Shown here: positions 183 through 44,764 of the stretch, one piece after another
How positions within the stretch are numbered: position 1 is the first letter of the stretch
Layout of the letters: every line of letters starts with the position of its first letter
NCBI GenBank assembly: GCA_017798125.1
Contig: CP059070.1
Span: 372,001 to 436,000, forward strand
DNA: 64,000 nt
Reading direction: 5' to 3'
From: Cryomorphaceae bacterium
GTDB lineage: Bacteria; Bacteroidota; Bacteroidia; Flavobacteriales; ECT2AJA-044
Position numbers and translations under genes: made by a program
The notes under the pieces: generated by a model
Database searches by the model: none
What the model was told of the DNA's origin: nothing
The model's input: the letters and a program-made list of their open reading frames with translations, nothing else

Positions 183-608
183 TTACTCGACTACGGGTTG
201 GCCCGAGCGACTCCAAGCGTCGTACCCACCGGCCAAATTATAGACTTCGGAGAAGCCCATTTCGTGCATCATGCTCATGGCTTTTGCACTTCGTCCGCCA
301 GCTTTACAGTAGACGTATACCGGGGTTTCGGGATCTAGCTTGGCCAGCTGATCGGCGAAATCGGCATCGTAGATGTTGTGGTGTACCGAGCCCTCTAGGT
401 GGCCAGCGTTGTACTCCTCCGGAGTGCGCACGTCCAGAACAATACCTTCACCAGAAGCAACGAGCTCGGCAAAGCGTTCAACGTTTACGTCTTCAGCTGT
501 TCCGGAGGCCTGCTCCACTACCTCTTCTGTTGCAGTGTCTTCAGTGGGCATCGTGCCGCAGGCACTAAAACTGATCAGGGCCAAAGCGCCCAACAAGAGA
601 TTCTTCAT
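183..608 (-). CDS. Rhodanese-like lipoprotein
   Basis: A 141-residue protein with a lipoprotein signal (MKNLLLGALALISFSACG), an acidic spacer and one rhodanese domain. The start at 608 is chosen over a longer frame from 644 because it begins the signal peptide exactly. The active-site loop is YCKAGGRS, with the catalytic Cys and the usual CxxGxRS form, so sulfur transfer or thiol chemistry in the periplasm is plausible. It follows the cytoplasmic-type rhodanese at 611-922 with a two-base gap, so the two are probably cotranscribed. The lipobox cysteine codon lies inside a copy of the dispersed palindrome (550-565). Physiological sulfur donor and acceptor are unknown. Confidence 0.85.
   Translation of the reverse strand: MKNLLLGALALISFSACGTMPTEDTATEEVVEQASGTAEDVNVERFAELVASGEGIVLDVRTPEEYNAGHLEGSVHHNIYDADFADQLAKLDPETPVYVYCKAGGRSAKAMSMMHEMGFSEVYNLAGGYDAWSRSGQPVVE
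550..565 (-). repeat. Dispersed palindrome, copy 1 (GTGCC-TGC-GGCAC-GAT)
   Basis: Read on the minus strand, the arms GTGCC and GGCAC pair perfectly around the triplet TGC and are followed by GAT. It lies in the signal-peptide end of the rhodanese lipoprotein; the loop TGC is the lipobox Cys codon. The loop differs from the usual TAC by one base. Confidence 0.6.
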
Positions 609-610
609 GG

Positions 611-922
611 TTAGTCGATTTTGTGCAAGCGGACATCGGTCCATCCTCCACCGTTATGTACATCTTCAAAGCCTTGAGCCGAAAGGTAGGCGGTAGCATT
701 TCCACTACGGGCACCTGAACGGCAACACAAGATGAGTGGGCGAGACATGGCGCGAAGCTCCTCGATTCGGGCCTCGACTTCGTCCAAGGGGATATTGATG
801 GAGCCATTGAGGTGGCCGCTTTCAAATTCGCCTACCGTGCGTACGTCGACGATGGTGGCGTTGGGGTCGTTGATTTTATCTGCGATCATGCGTTTGCGTT
901 TTCTATTGAATAAAAACATCAT
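611..922 (-). CDS. Rhodanese-like domain protein (cytoplasmic type)
   Basis: 103 residues with a short basic N-terminus (FNRKRKR) and a single rhodanese domain. The active-site loop is CCRSGARS, giving a catalytic Cys in CxxGxRS. There is no clear signal peptide, although the first residues MMFLF are hydrophobic. It is the first gene of a two-gene minus-strand unit with the lipoprotein rhodanese and is divergent from a third rhodanese at 1012. The start at 922 follows a -7 promoter element by 17 nt. A later Met at residue 12 is an alternative start. General family role: sulfurtransferase or persulfide carrier. Confidence 0.85.
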   Translation of the reverse strand: MMFLFNRKRKRMIADKINDPNATIVDVRTVGEFESGHLNGSINIPLDEVEARIEELRAMSRPLILCCRSGARSGNATAYLSAQGFEDVHNGGGWTDVRLHKID

Positions 923-939
923 TCGAATTTAATGAATTG

Positions 940-947
940 CAAAGGTA
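940..947 (-). promoter_or_regulatory. Promoter -7 element TACCTTTG
   Basis: Exact match to the Bacteroidota -7 consensus TAnnTTTG on the minus strand, 17 nt upstream of the rhodanese start at 922. No convincing -33 TTG was seen at the usual distance. Confidence 0.55.
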
Positions 948-998
948 CGCGCGTGTAGGAGTCGTTAAAGTGACCTGAATCACGCGGGTGCAATTCAT

Positions 999-1006
999 TA
1001 TATTTG
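999..1006 (+). promoter_or_regulatory. Promoter -7 element TATATTTG
   Basis: Exact TAnnTTTG match ending 5 nt before the ATG at 1012. With the usual short distance from this element to the transcription start, the mRNA would begin at or next to the start codon (leaderless). Confidence 0.6.
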
Positions 1007-1011
1007 GAAGG

Positions 1012-1527
1012 ATGAAGCGCTATGTCATCTTTTTAGGATTGCTGCTAGGTTACGCCTGCAGCCACGGTCAAGATCGACCTAAAGTATCGTCGGGCACCTA
1101 CGAAACCATGCTCAATGGATTGCTGACCCGCGATGTACCAGAGGTCTCAGTGAAAGAACTGGACACCACCGCTCAGAATGTGCTCTTACTGGATGCGCGT
1201 GAGCGCGGAGAATTCGAGGTCAGTCATTTGGACGAGGCACGATGGGTGGGTTATGACGATTTTGATCTTGAACGGGTTGCCGATATTCCGAAAGATTCTG
1301 CCATTGTCGTCTACTGCAGTGTAGGCTATCGAAGCGAGCGGGTGACCGAACAGCTTCAGGAAGCAGGATATACCAACGTCCGCAACCTGTATGGAGGTAT
1401 TTTCGAATGGTCCAATGAAGAACTGGAAGTGGTCGACCCAGAGGGAGATCCGACCAGCAAGGTCCATGCCTATGACCGCGTCTGGGGCGTTTGGCTCACC
1501 AAGGGCAAAAAAGTCTACAAACCTTGA
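1012..1527 (+). CDS. Rhodanese-like protein, exported
   Basis: 171 residues. MKRYVIFLGLLLGYACSHGQ is a lipoprotein-type signal (LGYAC); the start at 1012 is preferred over 988 because of this signal and the promoter immediately upstream. The rhodanese domain has the active-site loop YCSVGYRS. A C-terminal tail of about 40 residues (ending WLTKGKKVYKP) follows the last helix. The stop overlaps the likely TTG start of the mannosyltransferase (TTGA at 1524-1527). It is the third rhodanese in under 1.4 kb, with the active cysteine kept in all three. Confidence 0.85.
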   Translation: MKRYVIFLGLLLGYACSHGQDRPKVSSGTYETMLNGLLTRDVPEVSVKELDTTAQNVLLLDARERGEFEVSHLDEARWVGYDDFDLERVADIPKDSAIVVYCSVGYRSERVTEQLQEAGYTNVRNLYGGIFEWSNEELEVVDPEGDPTSKVHAYDRVWGVWLTKGKKVYKP

Positions 1528-2870
1528 ACATTCACTGGGGCAGAACCGCTTGGTACGCGTTGCTGGTCGCCTCAGCCGTCGGCTACTTTGCCCTGGCCTA
1601 CCACACCGAGCGGAGCAACTTTCCTCAGCTCATCTCCATTGTCGCGGGTCTCTTTGGGGCCTATGCGGTGCTTACTGCCTCTCAATTTCGAAATTCCACG
1701 GCCCTGTTGGTGGCTTTTTTCGCCTATCGCTTGATTTGGATGGGCGCGTTGCCAGAACTCTCCGATGATTACTTCCGCTTCTTGTGGGACGGGAGACTCT
1801 GGGTTGAGGGCATTAACCCCTTTGCTTATCTGCCCTCTGAAATCCTCGCCCAAGAAGTCTTACCGGACGGAATTTCCACCGAACTATTCCAGAATCTCAA
1901 CTCACCCGAATACTTTTCGGTGTACCCGCCCATTGCACAATTGACCTTCGGCTTGGCGGGCTTGTTGTTTCCCCAGAACGACCTCGCCGCCGTCGTGACC
2001 CTTAGGGTCATTCTTTTGCTCGGCGATCTCCTGGCCCTGTATTCCCTCCGCCGCATTCTCCGCTATTTCCGACGTCCGGAAGACATCGCCTACGTCTATC
2101 TGCTCTGCCCCATGACCGTAATGGAATTCACGGGAAACCTGCACTACGAAGGCCTCATGATGGGACTCGTTCTCAACGCGTACTACCACATCCTCAAAAG
2201 GCGTTGGCTCAGTTCCGCCATCATCTTCGGACTAGCCATCTCAACCAAACTGGTCCCCCTTATCTTTTTGCCTTTCCTTCTTCGCTTCGCCGGATGGCGC
2301 ATTGCGGGCACCTACTACGCCATCGTAGCCGTAGTCGTGGGTATCCTCTTCGCCCCATTCGTCAATATGGAACTGATTCTGAACTTCTCGGACAGTCTTG
2401 ACCTCTACTTCCGAAACTTTGAATTCAATGCCAGCCTCTACTACCTCGCCCGTGAAGTGGCCATTTGGATGAACGGATACAACCGCATTGACCTCATCGG
2501 CCCGAGTCTTTCGCTGCTGACTTTTTTGATTTTGATGATTTGGGCCCTCACGGGCCGATACGGCACCCGAGAGCACGAGCTCCCCACAGCCTGGATGGGC
2601 GCACACACCATCTTTCTTCTCCTCGCCACCACCGTTCACCCTTGGTACATCAGCATCTCCCTGGCCTTTGTTCCACTGTCCCGCTTTCGCTATCCCATCC
2701 TTTGGGCAGCCATGGTGTATTTGAGCTACGCGACCTATAGAACAACCGCCTACACCGAAGACCTCGTTTTGGTCTTGGTCGAGTACGGCGTGGTGATCGC
2801 TTTTTTAATTTGGGAGGTGAGTCGAAAACCTACTTCGACCAAGATCCTCGGATCGAGTGAAGCACGCTGA
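1524..2870 (+). CDS. Polytopic membrane glycosyltransferase (mannosyltransferase-like)
   Basis: About 448 residues with ten or more hydrophobic segments. The early loop motif DDYFRFLWDGRLWVEGINPF is typical of GT-C fold, polyprenyl-phosphate-sugar dependent mannosyltransferases of Bacteroidota, which use acidic residues in the first extracytoplasmic loop. Two starts are possible: TTG 1524, which interlocks with the preceding stop, or TTG 1491 further upstream; no ATG is suitable. The 3' end overlaps the convergent cellulose-synthase-like gene by 41 bp. It likely works with the nearby family-2 enzymes, one of which resembles dolichyl-phosphate-mannose synthase and could supply the lipid-linked donor (inference). 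Confidence 0.75.
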   Translation: MNIHWGRTAWYALLVASAVGYFALAYHTERSNFPQLISIVAGLFGAYAVLTASQFRNSTALLVAFFAYRLIWMGALPELSDDYFRFLWDGRLWVEGINPFAYLPSEILAQEVLPDGISTELFQNLNSPEYFSVYPPIAQLTFGLAGLLFPQNDLAAVVTLRVILLLGDLLALYSLRRILRYFRRPEDIAYVYLLCPMTVMEFTGNLHYEGLMMGLVLNAYYHILKRRWLSSAIIFGLAISTKLVPLIFLPFLLRFAGWRIAGTYYAIVAVVVGILFAPFVNMELILNFSDSLDLYFRNFEFNASLYYLAREVAIWMNGYNRIDLIGPSLSLLTFLILMIWALTGRYGTREHELPTAWMGAHTIFLLLATTVHPWYISISLAFVPLSRFRYPILWAAMVYLSYATYRTTAYTEDLVLVLVEYGVVIAFLIWEVSRKPTSTKILGSSEAR

Positions 2871-4314
2871 GGACATACACCGTACCGAATCCGAAGGCTA
2901 ACATTAAGTGATAGGGCACCAAGCCGAAATCGCCCAATTCATAGGCCACATACAAGGCGCCAATGAAATAGGCCGCCAATAGCCCTTCGACGAGTGTCAC
3001 TATGTTCAAAGCGGACTTCAAGTAGACGTTACTTCGCCACCCTGTACTCCCTTCTTCTACATTGAATTTCGGGGTCCGAACAAAAGGTGTTTTTCTGCCG
3101 ATCAAGCCCTCGAGCACCGCTACGGCATTATGTAGACTCATCCCCATCGAAACGGATAAGAACATGGGGAATTTAATGAGGAAGACGTGCAGGCGAGGTC
3201 GAGTCTCGCGATGTACATAACTCACCCAGTAGAACACCGTCAAGATCAGCAGGCTAATGACAAAGAAGGAGCCGAAATAGAAGATGTTTCGAAACTCCGG
3301 GAAGCTGTCCTTGATGAACAGCATAGGCACGCTTAAAATGGCCGTAAAGAGAATGCACAAAAAGAGAAAGCTGTTCATCAAGTGAAAGGTCGCGTGGATC
3401 TTGGTGCTCCATCCAATGGGTGCACGTAAGACCTTGCCCAAGTTTTTACGCGCGCATTCCGCGGCTCCTTTGGTCCATCGGAACTGCTGCGTCTTGAGTG
3501 CGTTCATCGAAGCGGGCAACTCGGCCGGAGATCCCAGTTCTTCGATGAAATGGAACTTCCATCCACGCAGCTGAGCCCGGTAGCTCAAATCCAAATCTTC
3601 TGTTAGGGTATCGCTGGCCCACCCTCCAGCATCATCGATGCAAGAGCGGCGCCATACACCTGCTGTACCATTGAAGTTGATGAAGTGCTCACCGGCGTAC
3701 CGCCCTCCTTGTTCCACCGAGAAGTGGGCGTTCAATCCAAAGGCCTGCATGCGCGTCAACAAACTGTGGTTTTCGTTGAGGTGTTCCCAGCGCGATTGTA
3801 CCAAGCCAATGTTATCATCGGCAAAAAGCGGAATACACTGCATCAGGAAATCGGGCTTGGGAACAAAATCCGCGTCAAAAATGGCGACGTACTCCCCACG
3901 GGCAGATTCCAATCCAAAGGCCAATGCCCCAGCTTTATACCCTTGACGATGAGGCCGGCGGACATGGTGGATGGTGTAGCCTTCCGATCGAAGTCGATTG
4001 ACCGATTCGGCAATCCGTTCCACCGTATCATCCGTGCTATCATCGAGCACTTGAATCTCCATCCGGTCCACGGGGTAGTCCAAGGCCGCAGTGGCCTCAA
4101 TCAGCCGTTCAACCACGTAGCGCTCATTATAAACGGGCAGTTGAACAGTCACCATAGGCCACTCTTCAAAGTCCTTGGGCTTGGGGTAAGCGAAGCCCTT
4201 TCGCTTGGCTCTTACGTAGTGAATCACCAGACTGAGCTGGACCAGCGCGTAGAAGAAGATGAAGGTCATCATTCCCGTATACAGGGCTATAATAAGGTAG
4301 CTAAGCGTCTTCAT
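2830..4314 (-). CDS. Processive family-2 glycosyltransferase, cellulose-synthase-like
   Basis: 494 residues. One N-terminal membrane helix (about 4-33), a cytoplasmic GT-A domain, and four to five C-terminal helices. The processive GT2 signature is complete: DDSTDD (91-96), DAD (147-149), TED (238-240) and QQFRW (276-280), so it should polymerise or extend a beta-linked glycan while feeding it through the membrane. The start at 4314 begins the first membrane helix; a longer frame from 4368 adds a non-hydrophobic leader. It is the last gene of the minus-strand operon, 10 nt after the Dol-P-Man-synthase-like gene. Sugar specificity cannot be read from the sequence. Confidence 0.85.
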   Translation of the reverse strand: MKTLSYLIIALYTGMMTFIFFYALVQLSLVIHYVRAKRKGFAYPKPKDFEEWPMVTVQLPVYNERYVVERLIEATAALDYPVDRMEIQVLDDSTDDTVERIAESVNRLRSEGYTIHHVRRPHRQGYKAGALAFGLESARGEYVAIFDADFVPKPDFLMQCIPLFADDNIGLVQSRWEHLNENHSLLTRMQAFGLNAHFSVEQGGRYAGEHFINFNGTAGVWRRSCIDDAGGWASDTLTEDLDLSYRAQLRGWKFHFIEELGSPAELPASMNALKTQQFRWTKGAAECARKNLGKVLRAPIGWSTKIHATFHLMNSFLFLCILFTAILSVPMLFIKDSFPEFRNIFYFGSFFVISLLILTVFYWVSYVHRETRPRLHVFLIKFPMFLSVSMGMSLHNAVAVLEGLIGRKTPFVRTPKFNVEEGSTGWRSNVYLKSALNIVTLVEGLLAAYFIGALYVAYELGDFGLVPYHLMLAFGFGTVYVLSVLHSIRGSWSK

Positions 4315-35533: not shown

Positions 35534-38176
35534 ATGCGATTACTACTTCTAGGAGCGGCAGCGCTCCTCTCTACTCTGGCATGGGGTCAAATTGCTCATG
35601 ACGGGCAGCCCATGGCTTCTGGTTCTAAATGGGGGGCACCTTCTTTTGTCACCACGCCTACCCCAAACTTGGCCCAACTGGCGGCTCAGGATGACCGGAA
35701 CGATCAAGACAAAGCCCAACCCTGGCGCTTTGGAGTCAACTACGACGTCCATTATCACCCCGGAAACAGCGGGACCCTAACCCAAGTGGCCGGGGGAACC
35801 GTTTGGCGATTGGGGATCCATGCACCGGGAGCCGTGTCCATCAACTTGCTTTTTGAAGATTACAACGTGCCGGCGGGCGCTCGGGTGTTTATGTACACAC
35901 CGGACCAGCAAATTGTCCGCGGTGCTTTTACCGAAGAGAACAACAAGTCCCACGGTGCGCTTGCTACCGACGTTGTGGAAGGAGACTCTCTGATTGTCGA
36001 GTACTTCTATCCGGGGCCCATCAGCGGAATTCATGGATTGGGTATCAAACGCATTACCTACGGTTATCGAGGGCTGGATAAGTTCAAGGGATACGGAGAC
36101 TCTGGGGCCTGCAACAACAATGTCAATTGTCCAGTAGGTGTTCCCTGGAGTGTTGAAAAGCGTTCTGTTGCCATCATTCTTGTCGGCGGAAATGGTGCGT
36201 GCACCGGCGCAATGGTCAATAACACAGCGAACAATGGGACGCCATACTTCCTGACGGCGGATCACTGCTTGGGCGGAAGCGTAGCGAACTGGGTTTTCCG
36301 GTTCAATTGGGAAGCTCCGACCTGTGCGAATGCCAATCCAACGAATATGCAGACCGTTTCGGGGAGCACGCTTCGAGCGAGCAACGGCGGTTCTGATTTT
36401 GCCTTACTCGAGTTGTCCAGCGCTCCTCCGGCTTCGTACAATGTCTACTACGCCGGTTGGGACAAGAGCGGAAATACACCGATAGAACAAGTGGCTATCC
36501 ATCATCCCAGTGGAGACATCAAAAAAATCAGTTTCGACGATGACCCAGCACAGCAAGCTCTATGGGGTGGCGCACAGTGCTGGCACATTCTCGATTGGGA
36601 AGATGGCACTACAGAGCCCGGCAGTTCTGGATCGCCTCTTTTTGATCAGAATCACCGCATCATTGGCCAGCTCTATGGAGGGACCGCGAGTTGTTCCAAC
36701 AACATCGATGACTACTATGGACGTTTCGACGTGAGTTGGGATGGAACCAGTGCTTCCACCCGATTGAAGGATTGGTTGGATCCAGGGAATATTGCCGTAG
36801 ACACTCTGGATGGATACGATCCAAACAGCCCAACCATGGCTCTAGATGCCTCCAGCACGCAGATATTAGGAATTGGGAGCATTGTCTGTGACAGCATCGC
36901 CGATCCAGAGCTCATGTTTACCAATCGTGGCTTTGACACCCTGACTTCCGTACAAGTTCATTACCAGATCAATGCAGCACCCTGGCAAACTTCGTCGTGG
37001 ACAGGAAGCTTGCTCACGCTAGACTCGGATACCGTTTCGCTTCCGAGCATGATGTTGGTCAACGGATTGAACACTTTGACTGTAGCCGTATCAGCGCCTA
37101 ATGGAGGAGTTGACGGAAACCCATTGAACGATACCTTGAGTTTGAGCTTCACAGCTTTCCCTAACGGAACCACCATGACGGTGGAAATTCAAACGGACGA
37201 CTACCCCGGTGAAACCACTTGGGAGATTGTGGATTCCGTGGGAACCGTTATCTATCAAGGAGGGCCATACAGCAATCCAAACACCAATCATTTGGAGGTC
37301 CTTTGCCTTGGGGATGGTTGTTACGACTTCATCATTTACGACTCCTATGGCGACGGCATCTGTTGCTTTTTTGGATCGGGGTATGTCAACCTCTTGGATC
37401 AAAACGGTGCAGTGATGGCCTCCCACAACGGGCAGTTTAACCTTCAAGCAACCGTACCCTTCTGTATGTCCGGATGTTCGTTCAGCGATAATCCCAGCTT
37501 GGACGACCCCACCTGCTTTGATGTGGCAGACGGGTCCATTCAGCTAGCCCCAAGCGGAGGTACTGGAACCAACTACACCTACAGTTGGAGCAACGGAAGT
37601 AATGCTGCCAGTATTTTCAATCTTCTGGCCGGGACCTACACTTGCACCATCACGAACGATGGATGCTCGGTGGTGAACAGCTACACCTTGAACAATCCTG
37701 CCCCCTTCGTACCCACGATTAGTCAAAATGGTTTTACGCTATTCACGAATGCAAGTGGAACGTACCAATGGTTCCGTGATGGTGTTCAGATCAGCGGGGC
37801 CAATACATCCAGTTATTTGGTGACGCAAAACGGGACCTATACGGTACAGGTCACCGACATAAGTGGGTGCATTGGACTGTCCTCTGGATACGTCGTCAGC
37901 AATATTTCTTGGGAAAGCCTACAGCTGGCCGGATTCACAGCATTCCCGCAGCCTACTAGTGAACAACTGAATCTACGCTGGGAATCAGCGCGAAACGAAT
38001 CGCTCCAAATTCAAGTCAGAAATGTCTTGGGTCAATTGATGTACGAGGGCGTCATCAGTATGGAAGCCGGATCAAACCAATGGTCACTCGATGTCCGCGG
38101 TTGGGCGACCGGAACCTATCACCTGCACCTGATCGGTGCCGAAGGAAATAAGGGGCTGAGCTTCATTGTGAAGTAG
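35534..38176 (+). CDS. Secreted trypsin-like serine protease with T9SS sorting domain
   Basis: 880 residues. Signal peptide MRLLLLGAAALLSTLAWGQ, a propeptide-like region, and a lysyl-endopeptidase-like S1 domain with His244 (TADHC), Asp288 (GSDFALLEL) and Ser365 (EPGSSGSPLFD). Then come linker domains, a SprB-type repeat near 650-720 and a C-terminal type-A T9SS sorting domain (about 800-880, ending LSFIVK). It should be exported through the type IX system and anchored or released for extracellular protein breakdown. The S1 specificity residue was not identified, so Lys preference is not claimed. Its end overlaps the M23 gene by 14 bp. Confidence 0.92.
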   Translation: MRLLLLGAAALLSTLAWGQIAHDGQPMASGSKWGAPSFVTTPTPNLAQLAAQDDRNDQDKAQPWRFGVNYDVHYHPGNSGTLTQVAGGTVWRLGIHAPGAVSINLLFEDYNVPAGARVFMYTPDQQIVRGAFTEENNKSHGALATDVVEGDSLIVEYFYPGPISGIHGLGIKRITYGYRGLDKFKGYGDSGACNNNVNCPVGVPWSVEKRSVAIILVGGNGACTGAMVNNTANNGTPYFLTADHCLGGSVANWVFRFNWEAPTCANANPTNMQTVSGSTLRASNGGSDFALLELSSAPPASYNVYYAGWDKSGNTPIEQVAIHHPSGDIKKISFDDDPAQQALWGGAQCWHILDWEDGTTEPGSSGSPLFDQNHRIIGQLYGGTASCSNNIDDYYGRFDVSWDGTSASTRLKDWLDPGNIAVDTLDGYDPNSPTMALDASSTQILGIGSIVCDSIADPELMFTNRGFDTLTSVQVHYQINAAPWQTSSWTGSLLTLDSDTVSLPSMMLVNGLNTLTVAVSAPNGGVDGNPLNDTLSLSFTAFPNGTTMTVEIQTDDYPGETTWEIVDSVGTVIYQGGPYSNPNTNHLEVLCLGDGCYDFIIYDSYGDGICCFFGSGYVNLLDQNGAVMASHNGQFNLQATVPFCMSGCSFSDNPSLDDPTCFDVADGSIQLAPSGGTGTNYTYSWSNGSNAASIFNLLAGTYTCTITNDGCSVVNSYTLNNPAPFVPTISQNGFTLFTNASGTYQWFRDGVQISGANTSSYLVTQNGTYTVQVTDISGCIGLSSGYVVSNISWESLQLAGFTAFPQPTSEQLNLRWESARNESLQIQVRNVLGQLMYEGVISMEAGSNQWSLDVRGWATGTYHLHLIGAEGNKGLSFIVK

Positions 38177-39458
38177 AGAGCGCAATAGGCGTCTCTTCCG
38201 GTGATTCAAAATCTTCAACGACTCCAGGGTAGTGAATATCCTGGAGTTGTTTTTTACGGCTAGCTTTGAGCGCGTCAAAACGAGCGCGATTTTCATCTTT
38301 AATAGGTTCACTCGGAGGAAGATCCTCTTTAAATGGATCCACTTGAACTCCATTCTTCCAGAATCGATAACACACATGAGGACCGGTCGCTAAACCCGTA
38401 GAACCGACGTATCCGATGGCCTGCCCTTGGCGGACCCGAGTGCCGACTTTGACATCCGCCACGAACTTACTCATGTGGAGGTATTGGGTTTCATAGGTAC
38501 TGTTGTGGCGCACTTTGACGTAGTTACCGTTGCCGCGGGTATATCCTCTTTTGGTCACTACCCCGTCTGCGGTACTGTAAATGGGCGTTCCATGAGGGGC
38601 GGCATAATCCGTACCGAGGTGTGCCTTCCACCTTTTTTGAACCGGGTGGAAACGGCGTTTGGTATAGCGACTGCTGATCCGACTGTACTCCACGGGGGCC
38701 ATCAAGAATACCCGACGCAGATTGTCTCCGGCATCGTCAAAATAATCTCCAAAAGCTTCTTCTTCCTCAAAGTAGTACGCGGGGTAGGTCTCGCCCATGT
38801 GCACGAATTCTACGGCACGCACGCGACCAACACCTAAGTACTCTCCATCGACATACTTCTCTTCATAAATGACCTTGAACTTGTCACCTTTCTTGACACG
38901 GAAAAAGTCCAGGGTCCAGGCGTAGATGGCGCTGAGCTCCATCACGAGTGCGGGGCTCATGTCGTTGTCCACCATGGCGTTCCAAAGAGAACTCTCAATG
39001 ACTCCGGCTGCGTGCTTTTCCCGGACCTCAATTTCTTTTTGTCCCCGATACACATTCAGCGAATCTCGAAGATCGACGACAACATAATCTGCCGGCGTGG
39101 GCTGATAGACAAAGCACTCCGCTCGGAGGATGCTGTCTTCAGTACAATAGACTTTATAGGGTTTTCCCGCTTGAATTCGGCGAATATCAAAGACTTCACG
39201 AGGAGTGCGTGCAATGCGATCGATGGTGGGGTAGTCTACTCCGTAGGGCAAGAGCAGTTCGCTCAAATTTTGCCCGTTCTTGATTTTATCCTCAACGACC
39301 ACATACTGGTCCACGGGGATTCCAAATTCCTCCCGGACTTCAACGGAAGCCGAATCCGCTTCCACACCCGAATCATCTCCCTCGTTCTTGGACGATGTAC
39401 AGGAGGAAACCAAAATAAGTAGGCTCAGGGCCCCAAAAAGCTGTTTTGCACCGATCAT
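38163..39458 (-). CDS. M23 family peptidoglycan endopeptidase, lipoprotein
   Basis: 431 residues. Lipoprotein signal (LSLLILVSSCTSS), an acidic spacer, LysM-like and OapA-like middle region, and a C-terminal M23 domain with HLGTDYAAPHGTPIYS, YLHMS and GPHVCYRFW supplying zinc ligands. It cleaves cross-links in peptidoglycan, as MepM-like enzymes do. The start at 39458 is chosen because the -7 element TATTTTTG ends 4 nt upstream; an open frame continues to 39482. Some relatives act as activators only, but here the zinc ligands look intact. Confidence 0.9.
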   Translation of the reverse strand: MIGAKQLFGALSLLILVSSCTSSKNEGDDSGVEADSASVEVREEFGIPVDQYVVVEDKIKNGQNLSELLLPYGVDYPTIDRIARTPREVFDIRRIQAGKPYKVYCTEDSILRAECFVYQPTPADYVVVDLRDSLNVYRGQKEIEVREKHAAGVIESSLWNAMVDNDMSPALVMELSAIYAWTLDFFRVKKGDKFKVIYEEKYVDGEYLGVGRVRAVEFVHMGETYPAYYFEEEEAFGDYFDDAGDNLRRVFLMAPVEYSRISSRYTKRRFHPVQKRWKAHLGTDYAAPHGTPIYSTADGVVTKRGYTRGNGNYVKVRHNSTYETQYLHMSKFVADVKVGTRVRQGQAIGYVGSTGLATGPHVCYRFWKNGVQVDPFKEDLPPSEPIKDENRARFDALKASRKKQLQDIHYPGVVEDFESPEETPIALSTSQ

Positions 39459-39462
39459 AAGA

Positions 39463-39470
39463 CAAAAATA
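39463..39470 (-). promoter_or_regulatory. Promoter -7 element TATTTTTG
   Basis: Exact TAnnTTTG match on the minus strand, ending 4 nt before the ATG of the M23 gene; leaderless layout. Confidence 0.55.
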
Positions 39471-39539
39471 ACGGGAAATCAACGCACCTGTTTCACCAGC
39501 TAGCGTCTTTTTGAACGGTTGACCGTTAATAAGTACTTC

Positions 39540-40358
39540 TTATTGGAAATCAATGGGTCTGCGGACCCCATCATAGTCGATCAAATCCATTTTAATGGAC
39601 CCGAAGAGCAATTCGCTTTGGAGACGAACGGGAACGTGGTTCTCGTCCTTCGTGGCCCAGAGATACATTCCTTCAGCTTCCTTAAAGACCCGACCCACCA
39701 ATACGATGGGCTGAAACTTCATGCATTCCACCTTTCCGAACTTGGTTTTGACCAGGTCATCACCCATATACCGCAAGCGCAGTGGAAAGACTTCGTGGTC
39801 CAGAAAAGTCGTGATCTCGAGTTCGTCCCCCACCTGAATGCCATCGACATCGAAGGTGCGACTGTAGTAGAAGGCGCTCAGAAGGTCCTGCACATTCTCC
39901 GGGGTCGCATAGGACTTCCCGTTACTGCTGTAGGCCGAATCGACATAATGGTCAAAGTCGATCTCGCGATTGATCTCATATCCCCCTTCGTAGACATCTC
40001 GAATGAACTTCCAAGGCACCAGTGCCGAACGGTCGAGGTAGGTCTCGTATCGATCATCCACCTTGTAAAACAGGTTGAACATCCCAACGGATCCTCCAGT
40101 CCCCACGATGTGATAGGTCGGCCGCCCGTGAACGCGGGTTTCTTCTAACACCCTCAACTCCGCGATTCCCGCGTTCACTAGGCCGTAATGAATTCTGTAT
40201 TTCAGGTATTCTCCGACTTCGAACGCATCATTTTGGAGCATGCGCATCCCCTCTTCATCAACCCCCACCACGCGCGCGACCTCCTCGGCAGGAGGCGGGG
40301 TTGTTTGCAGTTGGCTTCCCAACGGCAAGAGTAAAAGAAGTAGGGCAAGTCGTTTCAT
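39540..40358 (-). CDS. DUF3108 domain protein, exported
   Basis: 272 residues. Signal peptide MKRLALLLLLLPLGSQLQ; the frame is open upstream to 40436, into leuS, but the signal fixes the start. The mature protein has the DUF3108 pattern (GEYLKYRIHYGLVNAGIAELRV, FYYSRTF, LWATKDENHVPVRLQS). The family forms a lipocalin-like periplasmic barrel; its ligand is not established. It follows leuS by 43 nt on the same strand and is probably cotranscribed. Confidence 0.88.
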   Translation of the reverse strand: MKRLALLLLLLPLGSQLQTTPPPAEEVARVVGVDEEGMRMLQNDAFEVGEYLKYRIHYGLVNAGIAELRVLEETRVHGRPTYHIVGTGGSVGMFNLFYKVDDRYETYLDRSALVPWKFIRDVYEGGYEINREIDFDHYVDSAYSSNGKSYATPENVQDLLSAFYYSRTFDVDGIQVGDELEITTFLDHEVFPLRLRYMGDDLVKTKFGKVECMKFQPIVLVGRVFKEAEGMYLWATKDENHVPVRLQSELLFGSIKMDLIDYDGVRRPIDFQ

Positions 40359-40401
40359 AACCTCGTAAGTACAAAACGAGTGCCAAAGTGAATTATTGGA
40401 A

Positions 40402-43170
40402 TCAGCAGACGACGTTGATGATCTTCTTCGGCACAACGATCACTTTTTTAATCGGATTGCCTCCCGCGTATTTCTCGGTGCGCTCATCGGCCCGAATCGC
40501 CGCTTCAACCTCAGCCAGAGGAAGGGCCAATGAAAATTCTTGCTTGAAACGCATCTTCCCATTGAACATCACCGGATACTCATGGCTGTCTTCCACCAGA
40601 ACACTTTCGTCGTGGACCGGATAAGCCTGGGTCGTTACGGACGGCGCATGTCCCAAGCGCGCCCACAACTCCTCCGCAATGTGCGGAGCAAAGGGCGATA
40701 CCAGAATGGCCAAAGACTCCAGAACTTCACGCTTGTGGCACTTGAGGTCATTCAATTCGTTCACGCAGATCATGAAATTGGAGATACTGGTGTTGTAGCT
40801 CAGATTCACGATGTCCTCATTGATCTTCTTGATTGCGGTATGCAGGGCCTTCAGTTCCTTCTTATCGGCCTTGTCTTCCACCACCAGATTTTGGCCCTCC
40901 GGGCCGACGTACAAGCGCCACAACTTTTTAATGAAGTTGCTCACTCCGCTAATACCATTCGTATTCCAGGGCTTGGCCTGATCAATAGGCCCTAAGAACA
41001 TCTCGTACATCCGAAGCACATCCGCACCGTAACGATCGCAGATGTCGTCGGGGTTGACCACGTTGTACCAGCGCTTGGACATTTTCTCAACCTCGCTTCC
41101 GCAGAGGTATTGACCGTCTTCGAGGATGAATTCAGCATCGGCAAATTCGTTGCGCCAAGCCTTAAAGCGATCGAGATTCAGTACGTCATTTTCGACCATG
41201 TTGACGTCTACATGCAGGGCTGTTGTCTCATGCTCGGACGCAAGACCTTTGGAAACGAAGGTGTTGGTTCCGTTGATGCGGTAGACCAAGGCCGAAGTCC
41301 CCAAAATCATTCCCTGATTGACGAGTTTTTTGAACGGCTCGTCAAATCCGATGTATCCAAAGTCGTACAAGAATTTAGTCCAGAAACGACTGTACAATAA
41401 GTGTCCTGTGGCGTGCTCGCTTCCACCGACGTATAGGTCCACCTGTCCCCAGTAATCCGCTACTTCGCGACTGACGAATTCCCCTTCATTGTGCGGATCC
41501 ATGTAGCGCAAAAAGTACCAGCTCGATCCAGCCCACCCGGGCATGGTGTTGGTTTCCATTCGGTCTCCGTGGAACTGTGGCCAATCCTCTTTGGCCGCTC
41601 GAGCGAGTGGCGGTTCTCCGTCTGAAGTGGGAAGGTATTCATCCACTGGAGGGAGGGTCAAAGGCAACTCTTCGTCCTTGAGGGCAAAGGGCAAGTCGTC
41701 TTGATAGTAGATTGGGAAAGGCTCTCCCCAATAACGCTGGCGTGAGAAAATAGCATCGCGCAATCGGAAATTCACTTTTCCTTTTCCGCGACCGGCCTTC
41801 TCAATTTCTTCAACCGCTTTAACAATGGCTGCCGGAATCTCGAGCCCGTTCAAAAAGTCTGATTGAGCAATGCGCCCTTCCTTCTCGCCGTAGGCGGCCT
41901 CAGAAATATCTTGATCCTCAAAAATATTGGGGATGTCGATTCCAAAGTGGCGGGCAAATTCATAGTCGCGCTGATCGCCGCAAGGAACGGCCATGACCGC
42001 TCCAGTTCCGTAACCCGCGAGGACGTAGTCGCCGATCCAGACAGGGACCCGTTCGCCGGTAAATGGATGAAGAACGTGGGCCCCGGTAAAGACGCCGGTA
42101 ATGTTTTTGACATCGGCTTGTCGATCACGCTCAGACTTGCGCGATGTGGCCTCGATGTAGGCCTCCACTTCGTTTCGCTGCTCATCGGTGGTGATTTGCG
42201 CTACGAGCTCGTGCTCGGGTGCAAGGACCATGAAGGAAACTCCGAAAATGGTGTCGGGGCGCGTGGTGAAGACTTCTATTTGCTCCTCGTGTCCGTCTAG
42301 ATCGAAAAAGACTTGTGCTCCTTGAGAGCGGCCAATCCAATTCCGTTGCTGTTCCTTGAGGGCCTCACTGAAGTCAACGGTATCGAGTCCGTCCAACAAA
42401 CGTTGAGCATATGCCGTGATGCGCATGCTCCACTGCCACATACGCTTCTGCGTTACGGGATGGCCTCCACGTTCGCTTACGCCATCTTTAATTTCGTCGT
42501 TGGCCAGAACGGTGCCTAGGGCTTCGCACCAGTTTACCCAAGTTTCGCTGAGGAAGGTAAGGCGGTATTCGGAAAGGACGTTTTGCTGCTCGGCAGCCGT
42601 CATCGAACGCCAGGCCGAAGCGGTAAACTCTTGCATCTCGCCGTAGGCGGCATCCAAGCCTTCCGTACCGTGCTCTTCAAAATGAGCGATCAGTTCGTTG
42701 AGCGGGCGAGCGCGGTCGGCGGAGTTGTCATACCAAGAGTTGAATAACTGCTTGAAGATCCATTGCGTCCAGCGGTAATATGCCGGATCACTGGTACGTA
42801 CTTCTCGATCCCAGTCGAAGCTGAAGCCAATGCGGTCGAGCTGACCGCGGTAACGGGCAATGTTCTCTTCGGTGGTGATGGCTGGGTGCTGCCCGGTTTG
42901 AATAGCGTACTGCTCTGCAGGCAAACCAAAGCTATCGTAGCCCATGGGGTGCAACACGTTGAATCCTTTGTGTCGTTTGTAGCGCGCATAAATGTCGCTG
43001 GCAATGTATCCCAGCGGGTGACCCACATGAAGTCCCGCTCCAGATGGATAGGGAAACATGTCCAAGACGTAAAATTTAGGTTGCTCAGAACCGTTCTGTG
43101 CTTGATAGGTCTTTTGCTCTGCCCAATATTGCTGCCACTTGGCTTCGGTGGCGCGGTGATCGTAGCTCAT
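40402..43170 (-). CDS. leuS: Leucyl-tRNA synthetase
   Basis: 922 residues. HIGH motif as HVGH in SGAGLHVGHPLGY; an editing (CP1) domain; and the KMSKS loop written KMSKR in VEKMSKRWYNVVNPDD. It charges tRNA-Leu and edits mischarged residues. The start at 43170 follows the -7 element TACCTTTG by 20 nt; upstream codons are not conserved. The last KMSKS position being Arg in place of Ser is unusual. Two degenerate palindromes lie in the gene (41882 and 42635), both coding AAYGE. Confidence 0.96.
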   Translation of the reverse strand: MSYDHRATEAKWQQYWAEQKTYQAQNGSEQPKFYVLDMFPYPSGAGLHVGHPLGYIASDIYARYKRHKGFNVLHPMGYDSFGLPAEQYAIQTGQHPAITTEENIARYRGQLDRIGFSFDWDREVRTSDPAYYRWTQWIFKQLFNSWYDNSADRARPLNELIAHFEEHGTEGLDAAYGEMQEFTASAWRSMTAAEQQNVLSEYRLTFLSETWVNWCEALGTVLANDEIKDGVSERGGHPVTQKRMWQWSMRITAYAQRLLDGLDTVDFSEALKEQQRNWIGRSQGAQVFFDLDGHEEQIEVFTTRPDTIFGVSFMVLAPEHELVAQITTDEQRNEVEAYIEATSRKSERDRQADVKNITGVFTGAHVLHPFTGERVPVWIGDYVLAGYGTGAVMAVPCGDQRDYEFARHFGIDIPNIFEDQDISEAAYGEKEGRIAQSDFLNGLEIPAAIVKAVEEIEKAGRGKGKVNFRLRDAIFSRQRYWGEPFPIYYQDDLPFALKDEELPLTLPPVDEYLPTSDGEPPLARAAKEDWPQFHGDRMETNTMPGWAGSSWYFLRYMDPHNEGEFVSREVADYWGQVDLYVGGSEHATGHLLYSRFWTKFLYDFGYIGFDEPFKKLVNQGMILGTSALVYRINGTNTFVSKGLASEHETTALHVDVNMVENDVLNLDRFKAWRNEFADAEFILEDGQYLCGSEVEKMSKRWYNVVNPDDICDRYGADVLRMYEMFLGPIDQAKPWNTNGISGVSNFIKKLWRLYVGPEGQNLVVEDKADKKELKALHTAIKKINEDIVNLSYNTSISNFMICVNELNDLKCHKREVLESLAILVSPFAPHIAEELWARLGHAPSVTTQAYPVHDESVLVEDSHEYPVMFNGKMRFKQEFSLALPLAEVEAAIRADERTEKYAGGNPIKKVIVVPKKIINVVC
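41882..41897 (-). repeat. Dispersed palindrome, copy 9, degenerate (CCGCC-TAC-GGCGA-GAA)
   Basis: Four paired arm bases around TAC, with GAT replaced by GAA, sense strand in leuS. Could be chance. Confidence 0.3.
42635..42650 (-). repeat. Dispersed palindrome, copy 10, degenerate (CCGCC-TAC-GGCGA-GAT)
   Basis: Four paired arm bases and a conserved GAT, sense strand in leuS. Confidence 0.4.
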
Positions 43171-43231: not shown

Positions 43232-44449
43232 CTACCTCAACAGAGTAATCGATCCTTTTTCTTCAACGGTTTTCCCGTCACTGCCAATGCCTTTGGCCAC
43301 CACATAGTAGGTTCCTTCTGCGACTTCATGACCGTCCCAGCCAGCAAGATCTTCAAAACTTCCGTTGTAGCTCCAAACTGGTTTTCCCCATCTGGAGAAA
43401 ATTTGGATGTCCATTTGCTCAATGTCCTTTCCTGTCGGTTTCCATAGTTCGTTTTCTCCATCGCCGTTTGGCGTAAACACGTTGGGCAACTCCAATTCTA
43501 AGCACGATTTATTGAATACGCTTACCGTATCCCAAGTCACATCAAACTTAAAGTCCATTTGAGCGAGGTAGTAGGTGCTTGGGGTATCCCCAACCCAAAA
43601 GGTTCTTTCGGTGCTTATCGTATCTCCGAAGCTGTTCACCCACCAGTACATATATTCATCGTTGCGGTATGGAGAAGTCAACTCCACGGAATCCCCTTTA
43701 CATACGGTTACATCTTCACCGGCATCGGCGACGTATACCGGGGCATTGCAAGGGTACAGGACGAAGTTGTCAATAAAATAACTAAAGCTGTAAAAAGTAT
43801 TTTCGTGATATGCTAAAGGTGTGTTGAACCATCCAATCGTTAAGTGCCGCATAGTGTCTTGAATGACAACATTAGTTGATAAGTTTTCCCACTCTGACCG
43901 TGACAGGCTATCGAGTTCCGAAAAGGAATGCTGAGGCGTTATGTTTGGCCTGAACATTGAATCTAGAACAAAGTCTGTACTTGAAAAGTAAAGATCCAAT
44001 CCGAAATTAAAATCTTCAGGTGAATTGTCAGTTAAGCTAATATCCAGTTTTAGAGTATAGCATTATCCAGGTATTAGGTCTATGAGCAAAGTGGGCTGAA
44101 TAGTTTCAATATTCACGTAGTTGTCCGTTGATCCAAACCATCCTATCTCAGTTGCAACATGAGCATAATTGAAACCATATTTTGGTTCTTGGTATCCAAG
44201 AATTGTATATGGCGGCCTATAATCATCTGTCCATGAACATGGACTTATCAAGTCACTAGTCCATCCAAGATGGCGATGCGCTCTTTCCCAACCTAATGCA
44301 TCATAGATCCTCCCTTGGCCATAAACATCCTCACACGAAACGCTATATTCTTCAAAAGAAGGGTTAACAATCAAGTTTTGAGCACAAATAGGTGTCGTCA
44401 TTGTGACGACACCTATTACTATTCTAAATATTGATCTTTTAATGATCAC
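43232..44449 (-). pseudogene. T9SS type-B cell-surface protein broken by one in-frame stop
   Basis: One reading frame from GTG 44449 to the stop near 43232, interrupted only by TAA at 44065-44063. Upstream: signal peptide (VTMTTPICAQN) and NLIVNPSFEEY, a known start of Bacteroidota surface proteins. Downstream, in the same frame: CYTLKLDIS, a middle domain, and a type-B sorting domain (LPNVFTPNGDGENELWKP to KGSITLLR). Relatives read PGxCYxL at the junction, so TAA probably replaced CAA (Gln). The piece from 43999 starts at an internal TTG with no promoter and is not a separate gene. Base composition is AT-rich in the N-terminal part. A sequencing error is the main alternative. Confidence 0.8.
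44387..44417. repeat. Perfect 14-bp inverted repeat with 3-nt loop
   Basis: AATAGGTGTCGTCA (44387-44400) and its exact reverse complement TGACGACACCTATT (44404-44417) flank TTG. It lies within the signal-peptide codons of the broken type-B gene (IGVVTMTTPI). No T run follows, so terminator function is not supported. Confidence 0.85.
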
Positions 44450-44634
44450 TTGATTACAACTGAATGAACCTCGTTTTTGTCGTTGTACTGGAGGGTTAGT
44501 TGATATACTCCAGCGGGGATTTCATTTAGGTAAAACCCGTAGGCTTTTCCCGTGAATACCACGTCGTTTCTATAAACCCTACTTCCAAAGATATTCAAGA
44601 TTTTTATGGATACTAGTTGATCTTCAGCATTGAA
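44446..44634 (-). pseudogene. Remnant: C-terminal type-A T9SS sorting domain without a body
   Basis: 62 codons, from just after an in-frame TAA to TGA 44448-44446: LVSIKILNIFG, then VYRNDVVFTGKAYGFYL, IPAGVYQLTLQY and VHSVVIK. This is a clear Por_Secre_tail domain, whose normal hosts are large secreted proteins. No start codon, signal peptide or body is present; upstream the frame has stops and the ftsX gene follows on the other strand. Its TGA overlaps the GTG of the next gene (GTGA), so the two were once coupled in an operon. Most of the first gene has been deleted. Confidence 0.8.
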
Positions 44635-44764
44635 TTACACCTCTTTATACTAGGCCGTACACTTTAAACATTGCTCCCGTTGACTTTATAGACTGAGATA
44701 ACGTGCGTTAAACTTTAACTTTTCATTACCTCACGCCTTTCTTCAAAACCCTTACTTTAGCGGC
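44635..44764. other. Intergenic stretch with no gene seen
   Basis: AT-rich sequence between the sorting-domain remnant and ftsX. Stops occur in all frames that would extend the remnant. TACTTTAG about 10 nt before ftsX is a poor -7 match; no other signal is seen. Confidence 0.5.

Follow-up and report, generated by a model that had tools for sequence, protein, structure and literature searches.

A nonsense codon splits a gene for a type-B T9SS protein

The window, the whole 64,000-nucleotide stretch of DNA analysed here, comes from a genome (G000) that consists of a single 2.84 Mb contig. On its minus strand, one reading frame runs from a GTG start at 44449 to a TAG stop at 43232, and the sole internal stop in this frame is a TAA codon at 44065-44063. 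The features of the locus are as follows:

43232-44449, minus strand: split gene for a T9SS type-B surface protein, duplicate of G000:C1:186430-187644 (from the frame and the paralogue alignment)
44063-44065, minus strand: in-frame TAA nonsense codon, at the turn preceding a central jelly-roll strand (from the alignment and a model of the paralogue)
44066-44449, minus strand: 5' part of the gene, 128 codons, with the signal peptide and the first half of a CBM-like jelly roll (from the frame, alignment and model)
43232-44062, minus strand: 3' part, 276 codons and the stop, with the remaining jelly roll, an Ig/PKD-like linker region and a CHU_C type-B sorting domain (from profile matches)
43241-43492, minus strand: CHU_C / TIGR04131 type-B T9SS sorting domain (from profile matches)
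44387-44417, minus strand: 14-bp perfect inverted repeat with a 3-nt loop, within the signal-peptide codons (from an inverted-repeat search and the alignment)
44447-44635, minus strand: remnant of an upstream type-A T9SS gene (gene 1), its last ~62 codons and stop, with the TGA overlapping the GTG of the split gene as GTGA (from homology to the paralogous locus)

The preliminary description of the locus had proposed two open pieces in the same frame with the TAA as the only obstacle between them, and this arrangement is borne out, with both pieces aligning unbroken to a paralogue in the same genome. The 63-nt gap that it placed between the pieces arises because the next start codon in the list lies that far on; the frame is open right after the TAA. 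When the window was scanned for neighbouring open pieces that share a frame and span at least 80 codons, no pair other than 44449-43232 turned out to form one gene. In the RlmN/prenyl-synthase/DnaG run and in the pair at 38166-40439, each gene has its own start and stands by itself.

The 5' part of the gene opens with what by eye looks like a signal peptide (MIIKRSIFRIVIGVVTMTTPICAQ), ~24 residues long and ending in ..ICAQ, and also contains an 'NLIVNPSFEEY' domain. At the other end of the gene, the sorting domain passes the curated cut-offs of both TIGR04131 (40.1 bits, cut-off 35) and PF13585 (53.2 bits, cut-off 27), and with the signal-peptide-like start this upholds the earlier assignment to type-B T9SS proteins with a signal peptide. 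The 276-codon frame is the shortest among the 21 CHU_C matches in the genome, the others ranging from 389 to 3554. The N-terminal NPSFE domain is shared with OmpA-domain fusions in Flavobacteriaceae, and a profile search of the PDB returned mostly matches to the OmpA domains of the added relatives, which are uninformative on the split gene.

No Pfam family matches the jelly-roll domain of the split gene itself, and PF02018 falls slightly under its cut-off in one relative. The likeness of this domain to CBM4/16/22-like jelly-roll passengers comes from a Foldseek comparison with a model of the paralogue, which has a mean pLDDT of 62, with higher values in the jelly roll. The top matches are mostly carbohydrate-binding modules of families 4, 16, and 22, with E-values of 3e-6 and up and low query-normalised TM-scores of 0.2-0.3. 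On this model, which is of modest confidence, the stop maps between strands 115-124 and 130-138, inside the jelly roll. As a CBM-like fold in the model, the domain may bind sugars.

An intact paralogue lies in a two-gene cassette

The intact paralogue (G000:C1:186430-187644; 404 amino acids) is 66% identical to the split gene, covers both halves from end to end in the alignment with a single one-codon indel, and has the same domain order. It is the second member of a gene pair. Gene 1 of this pair, ~1250 codons long, specifies a type-A T9SS protein, and the TGA of gene 1 shares bases with the GTG start of gene 2. Homology between the window and this locus has a sharp edge at 44635, within gene 1, and extends as far as the stop codon at 43232. 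As judged from the aligned sequences, the window locus is a truncated duplicate of the two-gene cassette, because gene 1 survives there only as its last ~62 codons. No silent copies beyond the single paralogue were found in the genome.

Two further observations concern the cassette. Gene 1 at the paralogous locus (280 + 969 codons) has an in-frame TGA at L023:3512-3514 (G000:C1:183511-183513), which sits in a similar-looking NPSFE jelly roll near the position matching the TAA of the window. In addition, third-position GC is mosaic in both copies of gene 2 (window 43235-44449 and L023:6430-7641), at ~0.32-0.42 in the first part and middle and ~0.5 in the C-terminal part, with values of 0.53-0.67 in neighbouring genes of the window.

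The split gene resembles known T9SS type-B proteins (TIGR04131 / PF13585 CHU_C), such as SprB and PG1035, in its Sec-type signal peptide, extracellular passenger, and type-B CTD, but unlike them it is interrupted by a nonsense codon. A linked PorP/SprF-like partner is common for type-B genes and not obligatory. In contrast to the partner pairs SprB-SprF and PG1035-PorP (PMC9143113), the split gene has no adjoining PorP/SprF-like gene: the genome has six PorP_SprF matches, and all lie more than 150 kb away from the window locus.

The hairpin formed by the inverted repeat at 44387-44417 (-20.8 kcal/mol, z -7.7) lies ~30 nt past the stop of gene 1; no other perfect inverted repeat in the 64-kb window combines arms of ≥11 bp with a loop of 3-8 nt. 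The hairpin is present in the paralogue (L023:6461-6491, plus strand), where two changes leave the arms paired through G-U, and was not seen in the copies from a second genome of the genus (G001). It may act between the two genes as a terminator or attenuator, although its U tract is weak. As a dispersed repeat or recombination site the palindrome can be set aside: it is exact at two copies only, and matches with three mismatches are no more frequent than in a reversed control. An Rfam search gave no match, and a scan for sigma-70-like promoters performed at chance level. Scanning the strand of the gene for the Bacteroidota-type motif TAnnTTTG gave three matches, one just upstream of leuS and two within coding or remnant sequence, and none marks a clear promoter of the split gene. 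Only one match, inside gene 1, occurs in the paralogous locus, leaving the scan uninformative.

Cassette copies in a second genome of the genus are broken or run into contig ends

Comparison within the genus involved one other genome, G001, a draft assembly with Ns. Parts of the cassette occur there on four contigs: C82 (L046), by ribF-atpD; C41 (L047), by groEL; C45 (L048), by ftsZ; and C32 (L045), at a contig end by an rdgB-like gene. These copies are ~40-60% identical to the split gene. C82 carries the orthologue of the paralogous locus and keeps the pairing of gene 1 with gene 2, with a frameshift in gene 2 near L046:10915 and a deletion close to its end. On C41, gene 1 is truncated, frameshifted, and joined straight to gene 2, and the copies on C45 and C32 are interrupted by contig ends or Ns. 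The domains are the same in the split gene, the paralogue, and the G001 copies, and of the sister copies the paralogue is intact whereas those of G001 are broken or run into contig ends. Given the draft status of the assembly, some of the G001 lesions may be assembly faults. Orthologues of LeuS and FtsX were not found in G001 (listed as 97% complete), probably because the draft lacks a contig for the part that would be syntenic to the window. Scans of wider contig collections gave one generic sorting-domain match in genome contigs and none in viral contigs. On these comparisons, the cassette looks like a genus-restricted family with fast gain and loss.

Opposite the TAA, the intact paralogue has K. 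Three same-genus copies span the site and all have S, and distant relatives show K, V, T, E, A, or H. The preliminary description expected PGQCYTL at this point and CAA as the intact codon. A glutamine is unsupported, as Q is never seen at the aligned site in any of these sequences, and CAA consequently has no comparative basis.

Rates of change indicate a recent stop or a base-call error

The window copy and the paralogue differ by a dN of 0.255 and a dS of ~1.8, with dN/dS of 0.187 before the stop and 0.125 after it. Taking G001 C82, a damaged copy in the Ns-containing draft, as outgroup, unique amino-acid changes number 32 in the window copy and 28 in the paralogue (p = 0.70), 24 and 20 of which, respectively, fall after the stop, with no acceleration. 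Either the stop is too recent for acceleration to be seen, or the gene is not a pseudogene.

Across the 405 codons, the reading frame is never shifted and contains a single stop. Some 4-5% of random substitutions in the split gene would create a stop, and one stop fits ~0.02 neutral substitutions per site, with a 95% upper bound of ~0.09-0.11. In simulations, neutral drift of at least 0.2 substitutions per site gives an expectation of at least 8 stops and a probability of 0.003 for at most one. The branch of the window copy carries ~0.9 synonymous substitutions per site, and as these sites are near saturation the bound on age is rough. As a rough estimate from these rates, the loss of constraint would fall no earlier than about the final tenth of the branch, or would not have happened at all if the TAA is an error. 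The equal change in both copies, the lack of frameshifts, and the single stop despite near-saturated synonymous sites indicate that the stop is either recent or a base-call error. The proposal of a recent pseudogene fits these tests (32 versus 28 changes, low dN/dS, a single stop). As expected of a pseudogene made by a nonsense mutation, the premature stop removes essential domains and an intact homologue exists.

Interpretation of the split gene

We consider it probable that the locus is a duplicate, recently inactivated by a nonsense mutation, of a genus-restricted T9SS type-B surface protein. In the proposed sequence of events, an ancestral two-gene cassette, with a type-A CTD protein followed by a type-B CTD protein and a GTGA overlap, would have come to be present at two loci, and the window locus would have retained the gene 1 tail and gene 2 that are seen there. 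The rates suggest that purifying selection acted on gene 2 while most of the divergence between the two copies built up, and that the TAA was then acquired at codon 129. Translation would end within the CBM-like jelly roll. T9SS substrates require both a Sec signal peptide and a CTD (PMC12618676). The two signals are on one chain in the paralogue but not in the split gene as sequenced: the 5' product would be exported by Sec and have no sorting domain, and any restarted 3' product would have no signal peptide. Because each fragment is without one required signal, the split gene as sequenced should give no surface protein, and no T9SS substrate would be produced. The loss would be tolerable because the sister copy can carry the function. 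Decay is also seen in sister cassettes, in the TGA of the paralogous gene 1, in gene 2 on G001 C82, and in gene 1 on G001 C41.

The next reading in likelihood, though an unlikely one, is that the TAA is a base-call or assembly error, and that the organism has an intact, functional second copy. Selection seems undisturbed on both sides of the stop, the defect is limited to one codon, and equal rates would be expected of an intact gene too. However, no second case of an in-frame stop dividing a gene turned up in the 64-kb window, and uninterrupted frames are longer at the remaining 20 CHU_C matches, so errors are not abundant in the assembly. The stop also lies outside any repeat, in a locus that is already a truncated cassette.

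That the stop is a strain polymorphism or phase switch, toggled in the population or by recombination with the paralogue, appears improbable. In its favour, the genome does contain a potential donor of partial similarity, and the copies match more closely at the 5' end than elsewhere (dS 0.15 in the signal peptide), perhaps a trace of earlier conversion. However, no tandem repeat, invertible element, or silent cassette array is present at the stop, and the copies are only ~50-56% identical in DNA around it, so that conversion would be inefficient. The earlier suggestion of a phase variant is not supported, there being no repeat tract at or near the stop and no silent copies except the paralogue, and slippage-type variation is rejected for the same lack of repeats at the stop. 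A search of the literature on T9SS pseudogenes and phase variation found no paper on this protein family. Ordinary polymorphism of a pseudogene is possible.

We give very little credence to the idea that the genus keeps paired T9SS genes partly interrupted by stops, with TAA in gene 2 and TGA in gene 1, as a reversible reserve of surface variants and not because the genes are dying; both interruptions are in apparently related jelly-roll domains. Readthrough of the TAA, or halves that work as separate proteins, is scarcely plausible: the 3' part is constrained as strongly as the paralogue and the sister cassette has a second stop-interrupted gene (TGA), but the paralogue and relatives have sense codons at the site, two different stop codons are concerned and the rest of the region reads normally (grounds on which a code change is rejected as well), and the stop falls inside one domain, with the 3' part lacking a signal peptide and the 5' part a sorting domain.

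Inactivation of a duplicate by a recent nonsense mutation is ordinary gene decay, and its significance here is mainly for annotation. If the TAA is confirmed, the locus should be annotated as a pseudogene with an intact paralogue, and the orphan 3' ORF with its CHU_C domain should be left out of any list of secreted proteins. The locus would then be another instance of birth-and-death turnover of T9SS surface proteins.
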